This document shows, piece after piece, positions 8,448 through 55,769 of a DNA stretch of 64,000 nucleotides. Below the pieces are notes generated by a model. It did no database searches. It saw only the letters and a list, made by a program, of their open reading frames with translations, and was not told where the DNA came from. Source of the DNA: Croceitalea dokdonensis DOKDO 023 (lineage in GTDB: Bacteria > Bacteroidota > Bacteroidia > Flavobacteriales > Flavobacteriaceae); contig NZ_LDJX01000003.1 of the NCBI RefSeq assembly GCF_001306415.1, positions 248,001 through 312,000 of the forward strand, read 5' to 3'. Both the position numbers and the translations under genes were made by a program. How positions within the stretch are numbered: position 1 is the stretch's first letter; every line of letters starts with the position of its first letter.

Positions 8448-9347
8448 TTATCTAGTTACCTTTTTTGCGATTTTGCTGGGAGGGATGCCTTCACCATAGG
8501 TTTTGGCATAGATATGGGTAAATTCGGCCCCAAAGAAAAGGATCATCGACGAATAAGAGACCCAAAGCAAAATCAAGACGATGGTGCCCGCGGCTCCGTA
8601 TGTGGAGCCAGGGTCTGCTTGCGCAAAGTATAGTCCCAATAAAAACTCTCCAAAAACAAACAGGAAAGCCGTAAGAATGGCTCCTTTCCAAACCGTTTTC
8701 CAGGCGATTTTGGCATCTGGCAAATATTTGAACATCAGGGCAAAAAGAAAGGAAACAAGTCCCAAGGATAGCAAAAAGTCTAAAGCGTACGCCACATAGA
8801 GCAACAAATCTGGAAGCATTTCACTAATATAGTCGGTCAAAATGCTCAAGGCCGCGGTAATCATAAAACTAATGAGCAATAAAAAACCGATGACCAAAAT
8901 AAAAGCAAAACTTAAGGCCCTATCGGTAACGATTTTCCAAATTTTCACTTTGGGTTTTGGTACTATGTTCCAAATTTCATTGATGGAGACTTTTAACTGG
9001 TAGAAAACACCTGTAGCACCAAATAATAAGGTGCCAATTCCAATAAAAGTTGAAATTGCGTTTTTATCAGAAGACCGGGTTTCCCTAATTATGGTTTCAA
9101 TGGACGTGGCCGCGTCCCTTCCGAGTGCCGCCGTAAATTCATCGGTCAATTTTCCTTGAACGATTTCATAGCCCCAAATGGCACCGACCGTGTTAATGAT
9201 GATGACCAATAATGCCGGTAAGGAAATGACGGCATAATACGCCACAATAGCACTTAGGCGAAAAGGGTCATCGGCCAGCCAGGCCCTAAAGGTGGTAACG
9301 ATCAATTGGGGCAGGTCTTGAAACTTGAATGTTTTTGAGGGTATCAC
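8448..9347 (-). CDS. YihY/virulence factor BrkB family membrane protein
   Basis: A 299-residue protein with six predicted spans. It has the family opening PFRLSAIVAYYAVISLPALL (about residues 28-47) and the later KYLPDAKIAWKTVWKGAILT motif (about 207-226). Members are inner-membrane proteins of uncertain function, once misnamed ribonuclease BN. The start codon is GTG at 9347, directly after the TAG of the flavoprotein gene (TAGGTG), so translation is probably coupled; no closer ATG exists. Confidence 0.88.
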   Translation of the reverse strand: MIPSKTFKFQDLPQLIVTTFRAWLADDPFRLSAIVAYYAVISLPALLVIIINTVGAIWGYEIVQGKLTDEFTAALGRDAATSIETIIRETRSSDKNAISTFIGIGTLLFGATGVFYQLKVSINEIWNIVPKPKVKIWKIVTDRALSFAFILVIGFLLLISFMITAALSILTDYISEMLPDLLLYVAYALDFLLSLGLVSFLFALMFKYLPDAKIAWKTVWKGAILTAFLFVFGEFLLGLYFAQADPGSTYGAAGTIVLILLWVSYSSMILFFGAEFTHIYAKTYGEGIPPSKIAKKVTR

Positions 9348-55103: not shown

Positions 55104-55233
55104 TTCCCATATTTCTGATTTCACTATTTTTTGCATCTTACATAAAAAGTATATTTTTGCATTCCATTTGATATGGATAGAATGCCCAAATGTTGGCCCG
55201 TATTTTAGAGCCATCAATAGCATGGGTTTTTTC

Positions 55234-55581
55234 TGACATAGTGATATTGGCCCCGTAGTTCAATGGATAGCATAGCCCCGAAGCGTCGGGGTCCTAAACT
55301 TTTGGGCAGTTTTTTTTTGACATAGTGGTATTGGCCCCGTAGTTCAATGGATAGCATAGCCCCGAAGCGTCGGGGTCCTAAACTTTTGGGCAGTTTTTTT
55401 GACATAGTGATATTGGCCCCGTAGTTCAATGGATAGCATAGCCCCGAAGCGTCGGGGTCCTAAACTTTTGGGCAGTTTTTTTTTGACATAGTGATATTGG
55501 CCCCGTAGTTCAATGGATAGCATAGCCCCGAAGCGTCGGGGTCCTAAACTTTTGGGCAGTTTTTTTTGACATAGTGATATT
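55234..55581 (+). repeat. four tandem tRNA-Arg-derived units, period 82-84 bp
   Basis: Units begin at 55249, 55333, 55415 and 55499. Each has a 15-base leader (TGACATAGTGATATT, one base different before unit 2), a 61-base core and a T-run of 9, 7, 9 or 8. The first 22 core bases equal the 5' end of the real tRNA at 55582 (acceptor strand and D-arm). Then comes a hairpin CCCCGA-AGCG-TCGGGG, followed by TCCTAAACTTT, which recalls the anticodon loop, and GGGCAG. T-arm and 3' acceptor are missing, so the units are not functional tRNAs. Confidence 0.9.
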
Positions 55582-55653
55582 GGCCCCGTAGTTCAATGGA
55601 TAGAATAGAAGTTTCCTAAACTTTAGATGCAAGTTCGATTCTTGCCGGGGCTA
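55582..55653 (+). tRNA. tRNA-Arg (anticodon CCT)
   Basis: A full cloverleaf of 72 bases. Acceptor GGCCCCG pairs with CGGGGCT (one G-T), D-arm GTTC/GAAT, anticodon stem GAAGT/ACTTT with loop TTCCTAA, T-arm GCAAG/CTTGC with loop TTCGATT, discriminator A. CCA is not encoded. It would read AGG codons. Confidence 0.9.
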
Positions 55654-55769
55654 CAATTAAGTTTTCCGCAATGCCACTAATATCCCGTTACTACTGTTTT
55701 TCTTTTCTAAACCAAGCGTCTACTTCCTTAGTATAATTTTAAAGGGGATTGTGCATTTCCAAGAAACCA

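Follow-up and report, generated by a model that had tools for sequence, protein, structure and literature searches.

Among the closest described counterparts of the locus studied here are the tyrT/tyrV (rtT/RttR, tpr) and lysT repeats of Escherichia coli, which are likewise tandem copies of a tRNA end, in their case the 3' end, beside the intact gene; a small RNA, RttR, is reportedly produced from the tRNA-Tyr repeats. Nuclease and repeat are also paired in Neisseria, where single-strand-specific GIY-YIG nucleases (Ssn) are said to have cognate repeats in the genome; to our knowledge they are not linked to tRNA genes. The REP/RAYT systems offer a third comparison, with short, GC-rich, many-copy palindromes that are associated with a Y1 transposase. 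Integrases, in addition, usually cross over within an arm or loop of a tRNA gene. A small GIY-YIG enzyme tied to tRNA genes is found in T-even phages, where free-standing homing endonucleases of the SegB type are associated with tandem amplification of tRNA and nuclease (PMC13096335). This precedent shows that tRNA loci can be amplified in tandem through the action of a GIY-YIG enzyme. The system differs from the one described below in that it is phage-borne and amplifies full tRNA genes by microhomology recombination, and its text nowhere uses the terms “hairpin”, “partial tRNA” or “truncated tRNA” (PMC13096335).

The window analyzed here is a stretch of 64,000 nucleotides from Croceitalea dokdonensis DOKDO 023. 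Four identical 61-base cores lie upstream of its tRNA-Arg(CCT) gene, starting at 55249, 55333, 55415 and 55499, and the start-to-start steps from the first core to the tRNA (start 55582) are 84, 82, 84 and 83. The cores are in step with the tRNA, so that the fourfold repeat with a period of 82–84 bp reported in the initial annotation is borne out by the coordinates, and TRF detects a tandem repeat at the array (rows scoring 720 and 734). The assembly is a draft of 16 contigs, one of which (454 kb) contains the array in its interior, and the exact unit number is for this reason not proven. The features of the array are as follows (window coordinates):

55150..55159, + strand: promoter-like motif TATATTTTTG of the Bacteroidota type, 5' of the array (sequence reading)
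55173..55196, + strand: possible decayed older unit (unit 0), ATGGATAGAAT..GCCC.. (weak score)
55249..55309, + strand: unit 1 core, 61 bp (tRNA-Arg 5' part, hairpin, anticodon and 3' anticodon strand, TGGGCAG)
55276..55291, + strand: unit 1 hairpin, CCCCGA-AGCG-TCGGGG
55310..55332, + strand: spacer/leader 1, T9 GACATAGTGGTATT
55333..55393, + strand: unit 2 core, same as unit 1, hairpin at 55360–55375
55394..55414, + strand: spacer/leader 2
55415..55475, + strand: unit 3 core, same sequence, hairpin at 55442–55457
55476..55498, + strand: spacer/leader 3
55499..55559, + strand: unit 4 core, same sequence, hairpin at 55526–55541
55560..55581, + strand: spacer/leader 4, the leader of the intact tRNA
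55582..55654, + strand: intact tRNA-Arg(CCT) (ARAGORN; Rfam RF00005, 67 bits at 55582–55653)

Each core consists of tRNA-Arg(CCT) positions 1–27 (with A23C), CCCCGAAGCGTCGGGG, positions 33–43 and TGGGCAG, and is followed by a T-run. Read from the sequence, positions 33–43 correspond to the anticodon through the 3' anticodon strand, and the hairpin replaces positions 28–32 (AAGTT) of the 5' anticodon strand. Two proposals of the initial annotation are thereby confirmed: the units stem from the adjacent tRNA, whose 5' part is recognizable, and a hairpin stands in place of an arm, within the anticodon arm of each unit. The further claim that only the T-runs change is almost but not completely correct: the cores are identical, and the spacers carry one substitution in addition to the differences in T-run length (GTGGTATT past unit 1, GTGATATT past units 2–4); the interpretation as recent amplification or conversion is upheld. 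The array differs from the E. coli repeats in that its units are copies of the 5' part of the tRNA, located upstream and plugged in the anticodon arm, whereas the direct-sense copies in E. coli are found only on the 3' side and at two isotypes among those examined. A 91-base unit query matched only the window locus in the genome, and Rfam at the gathering score detects the intact tRNA alone at the array.

The motif TATATTTTTG is presumably promoter-like, as judged from the Bacteroidota consensus, and its context, AAAAAGTATATTTTTG, is common to the tRNA-Arg(CCT) leaders of two genus mates (G002 and G004). The array therefore probably sits between the old, putative promoter and the tRNA gene. 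Unit 0, for which an equal or better score was obtained in 72 of 2000 first-order-shuffled sequences, is suggestive by position but weak by score as a relic of an ancestral gene.

A location downstream of a promoter-like motif and ahead of the tRNA would suit a function at the RNA level, in which units within the tRNA precursor give rise to short RNAs with a hairpin that serve as regulators, sponges or decoys, in the manner of RttR. The identical cores with variable spacers and the annotation of the E. coli tyrT/tyrV repeats, which contain tRNA-Tyr 3' ends, with RttR and tpr agree with such a function. Core identity is, however, equally expected from recent duplication, the hairpin position differs by tRNA with copies 5' in some and 3' in others (see below), and the unit folds at most weakly better than shuffled sequences (z −1.2, 24/200, with the T-run; z −2.0, 7/200, for the 61 nt). 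We consider an RNA function unlikely. The mini-tRNA that had been proposed to form by pairing of GGCCCCG with CGGGGTC was rejected, as the minimum-energy folds make no use of this acceptor pairing. The suggestion that a unit acts as a terminator was likewise dropped after a terminator scan returned 0 sites (mean of 1.0 in shuffles).

The five proteins tested near the array are assigned to sulphur transport, DUF6691, a response regulator, and the large and small chains of ribonucleotide reductase; no integrase is among them. A weak 18-bp tandem repeat with 2.6 copies was also noted at window positions 8863–8908.

A query consisting of the unit and the tRNA matched 82 of 197 relatives, for most of them by the tRNA alone, and in the genus mates G001–G007 it matched only the tRNA and no unit. 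Among 397 family genomes, window-type units with at most three mismatches were found only in G000 and G014. The latter belongs to another genus and contains one unit with the same hairpin site as in the window and with a 5' acceptor sequence that comes from its own tRNA; a decayed copy is present in G115. A scan of 69 tRNA-Arg(CCT) loci (one of which yielded no tRNA) identified both unit signals in two loci (L007 and L013).

The hairpins are distributed more widely, and the expectation of the initial annotation that relatives occur elsewhere is upheld: tRNA-anchored repeats like the window units are present in other Bacteroidota genomes. The pattern CCCGAAGCNTCGGGG was matched in six of the 14 genomes searched (0 for the control); these matches adjoin other tRNA genes and lie within 3'-end copies, at the place where the T-loop would be. 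The pattern TTCCCCCGANGCNTCGGGG was found at 37 places in 14 of 299 genomes (0 for the reversed pattern), and 34 of the 37 places are located at most 1.1 kb from a tRNA (27/30 from fetched loci, the other seven by coordinates), the exceptions being L208, L220 and L227. Within the C. dokdonensis genome, seven of nine hairpin matches are at tRNA copies. Its arrays are found at Phe, Val(GAC), Ile(GAT), Trp, Gln, Thr(GGT), Arg(ACG), Arg(TCG) and Arg(CCT), with 3'-end repeats at tRNAs other than that of the window array and with Val(GAC) units as short as 35 bp; the initial annotation had missed these arrays at further tRNA genes.

The duplication of tRNA ends with retention of an intact gene, at arms and loops where integrases usually cross over, would also be expected if the units were attachment-site scars of phages or integrative and conjugative elements (ICEs) that use tRNA genes through a tyrosine integrase. 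In the arrays, the crossover region itself is swapped for a hairpin, units can be as short as those at Val(GAC), and the five neighboring genes tested include no integrase. The exact unit pattern is absent from viral contigs, and none of the listed plasmid and phage matches extends beyond the tRNA part. Such scars are therefore a very improbable source of the units, although insertion scars were the nearest of the earlier suggestions, given that the units match a tRNA-anchored repeat family that often includes a GIY-YIG nuclease gene. Three tRNAs are present in YeeE-matched loci, and plugged copies were found at one of them, the tRNA-Arg(CCT) of Dyadobacter psychrophilus. This locus (L068, bases about 1–560) contains a near-full plugged copy upstream and two double-plugged copies downstream of the tRNA, with hairpins of different type.

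Partial tRNA copies were surveyed in four Bacteroidota genomes, where 46 of 143 tRNA genes have a partial self-copy of at least 12 nt within 1 kb, compared with 57 of 4780 (1.2%) mismatched tRNA–flank pairs; the tally is per gene, one copy can count for several adjacent duplicate genes, and chance may account for a few matches. The genes with copies number 8/36 in C. dokdonensis, 12/39 in G014, 21/33 in G363 and 5/35 in D. psychrophilus. Each tRNA entered the survey once per set of flanks, and only if at least one flank reached 400 bases; the count of 8/36 thus excludes the Arg(TCG) array that spans two contig ends and the second Ile locus. A perfect GC-rich stem of at least five base pairs is present at 39 of 80 copy junctions but at only 716 of 15467 random positions. 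About half of the junctions are without such a stem; at most of these the hairpin is present in an imperfect form, GAGAAG..TCGAAGG, or is replaced, in Dyadobacter, by GC-rich inserts of other kinds. Hairpins nested within hairpins were found at His in G363 and at Thr in G014. The stems covary (TCCCGA/TCGGGA, TCCCGC/GCGGGA, CCCCGA/TCGGGG, TTCCGA/TCGGAA), as would be expected of any palindrome that is kept.

The array is 3' of the tRNA at 66 of the 80 junctions. This orientation, together with the empty terminator scan, makes it highly improbable that the units act as a leader attenuator that terminates or slows transcription and sets the supply of tRNA-Arg(CCT), for which the upstream location of the window units and the T-run after each of them would speak. 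The position of the hairpin was tabulated for stems starting CCCG-like whose 8-nt flanks deviate from the tRNA by no more than one mismatch (100 rows). It occupies the T-loop (56|62) in Phe arrays, replaces the whole anticodon arm, usually at 28|46, in the Val(TAC) arrays read, and is located at 27|45 in Ala and Arg(TCT) arrays; more than one site per tRNA occurs for Asn, Asp, Met and Gly, and the Phe and Val lineages each keep to one site. Plugged Val copies in G018 and G199 (L382 and L386) are called tRNA-SeC and tRNA-Stop by ARAGORN and represent a source of false tRNA annotation.

E. coli K-12 was meant as the negative control of the survey and came out positive: eleven stretches with 45 tRNA genes were covered, and 8 of these genes, two Tyr (the RttR/tpr repeats) and six Lys, have partial copies. 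Partial tRNA copies are thus wider than the Bacteroidota and as such already known. The Tyr and Lys regions fetched contain no annotated GIY-YIG gene, indicating that no linked nuclease is needed for such copies to arise or to persist. The Lys copies share with those of the Bacteroidota a GC-rich, hairpin-like stretch in place of the T-loop: in the lysT cluster and at lysV (L437 and L438), GGCCCGAAGGGCGAGCGAAGCGAGTC precedes the 3'-end copies of tRNA-Lys, in a plan like that of the Bacteroidota copies.

Many Bacteroidota arrays contain a small gene for a predicted nuclease. An ORF of ~93 amino acids with a GIY-YIG domain lies within the Phe arrays of four genomes (G000, G004, G233 and G237), and two hand-read sequences match Pfam with E-values of 9.7e-15 and 4.5e-13. 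A search of 120 family genomes gave 30 GIY-YIG hits in 19 genomes with a tRNA in 27 of the 30 loci; by hand count these hits represent 22 separate sites, 19 of which adjoin a tRNA and 18 of these with partial copies. In a search across the phylum, matches at E ≤ 1e-12 came from 190 of 395 genomes, and of 30 loci that were fetched, 27 contain a tRNA with partial copies. Every one of the 36 distinct nuclease ORFs near a tRNA shares its strand. Catalytic-type residues are kept in an alignment of 15 rows, and the nuclease profile A1 matches UPF0213 structures (1.8e-11 and 1.7e-8) and SLX1 (4.6e-6); NCBIfam has a name for neither nuclease, and the best value from phmmer against the PDB was 0.25.

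The nucleases of Phe arrays share 56–66% identity across genomes, with pS values of 0.79–1.05 and dN values of 0.31–0.39, and are thus under purifying selection. In a tree of 31 of the 41 ORFs (ten were omitted as tandem copies or, in one case, partial), the tRNA label changes 13 times, compared with a mean of 21.3 after shuffling and no value as low in 200 shuffles. The Phe lineage forms one clade (85/92), Val requires two changes and Asn four, and the two Arg(CCT) rows are apart. This agreement between nuclease lineage and tRNA may result from vertical descent at one locus, not from target specificity.

The presence of one hairpin type at several tRNAs of a genome, the nested hairpins, and the REP families that are known in Bacteroidetes (PMC3733652) would all be consistent with passive palindromes, that is, REP-like mobile hairpins that land in the loops of spare tRNA fragments with nuclease genes as hitch-hikers. 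A nuclease that is under purifying selection and linked by lineage argues against a passenger role, as does the location of most matches of both tested hairpin types at copies of a tRNA (34/37 places; 7/9 in C. dokdonensis), a restriction that also sets the arrays apart from REP/RAYT, as does their link to a GIY-YIG gene instead of a Y1 transposase. The REP tags GTAG and CGTC are not found just before the stem, where the window units have ATAG and the Phe and Val(GAC) units GTTC. Passive palindromes appear to us a rather unlikely explanation, marginally less credible than an RNA function. The CCC..GGG palindromes are reminiscent of dRS3, and the pairing of a nuclease with repeats is reminiscent of Ssn.

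In C. dokdonensis, nuclease-bearing arrays are present at Phe and Arg(TCG). The 5' array at Arg(TCG), with its GIY-YIG ORF and a palindrome, CCTGACTGCCGGCAGGCAGG, in the D-loop, terminates two contigs (the end of C3, L206, and the start of C9, L205), which indicates that such arrays break assemblies. A further GIY-YIG gene (L193), in the region C13:266000–269500 (L203), has no tRNA near it and lies amid 14 copies of a ~106-bp repeat, an arrangement that fits a rule of nuclease plus repeat. These contig ends, in a genome that is a draft, raise the question of whether the copy number in the window is an assembly artefact; single and multiple units of the same anatomy are seen in other genomes, and we regard an artefact as exceedingly improbable.

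Nuclease arrays also occur at the same tRNA as the window array. G063 has two units with nuclease ORFs 5' of tRNA-Arg(CCT), the nearer ORF being broken by a stop, and G171, from another family, has three 5' copies at tRNA-Arg(CCT), one with the ORF and two without. The G063 protein matches 43 of 397 family genomes, and the loci obtained from this search contain a tRNA in 25 of 29 cases. In all of the five best genomes (G063, G301, G257, G266 and G431) the gene is 5' of tRNA-Arg(CCT) and the hairpin follows tRNA position 22 (22|27); identity to the G063 nuclease is 49–57% in the other four, and the next hits (≤43%) are at other tRNAs. The hairpin site of the window units is 27|33, unlike that of these nuclease-bearing arrays, and a search of the C. 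dokdonensis genome for the Arg(CCT)-type nuclease gave no close relative. Elsewhere, short 5' arrays that resemble the window array and likewise have no ORF occur both at Arg(TCT) (78 bp) and at Pro(GGG) (81 bp).

Based on these data we define a repeat family whose unit contains a tRNA end up to an arm, with the loop or stem-loop of that arm swapped for a hairpin, mostly YCCCGM..KCGGGR, plus a leader or trailer; the unit may or may not hold a ~90-aa GIY-YIG gene on the same strand. Each window unit copies part of its neighboring tRNA, as far as an arm, and has the hairpin; the nuclease gene is lacking, so that the link of a GIY-YIG endonuclease to a tRNA locus known from SegB applies to the repeat family and not to the window array. 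Units of 82–84 bp are too short for the gene, and the array is for this reason classified as an ORF-less relative.

The anatomy of the arrays, their recurrence, the nuclease association and its purifying selection, and the nuclease arrays at Arg(CCT) are shown by the data above; the mechanism is inferred. The nuclease probably acts at the hairpin and might recognize it as single-stranded or branched DNA, which would produce ends flanked by tRNA sequence. Recombination through the homology of the tRNA ends would then insert or duplicate a unit beside the same tRNA, and selection would preserve one intact tRNA gene at the end of the array. Units without an ORF, such as those in the window, would spread as one direct repeat recombines with another, possibly with assistance in trans from other GIY-YIG genes of the genome. 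Classical homing is difficult to reconcile with the arrays because the intact tRNA retains the site. On balance, we favor the view that the window array is an ORF-less member of this tRNA-anchored repeat family of the Bacteroidota, spread according to the model of nuclease and homology.

A broader proposal, which we put forward tentatively and hold to be somewhat short of an even chance, is that the arrays represent phylum-wide minimal mobile elements in tRNA genes. Such an element would consist of a ~90-aa GIY-YIG nuclease, a hairpin as its substrate and a tRNA end as its address, with one tRNA and one hairpin site per lineage; ORF-less arrays would be the non-autonomous, amplifiable form, and the Tyr and Lys repeats of E. 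coli may be distant kin. No description of such arrays was found in the literature covered, from which subscription papers were mostly absent. If the proposal is true, the tRNA genes of the Bacteroidota host a compact nuclease element by which their ends are duplicated and exact tRNA domains exchanged for a common hairpin, and the small UPF0213-like GIY-YIG proteins would gain a testable substrate. Puzzling pseudo-tRNA calls and assembly breaks at tRNA loci would be explained, and the old tRNA-Tyr repeats of E. coli would gain a comparative setting.
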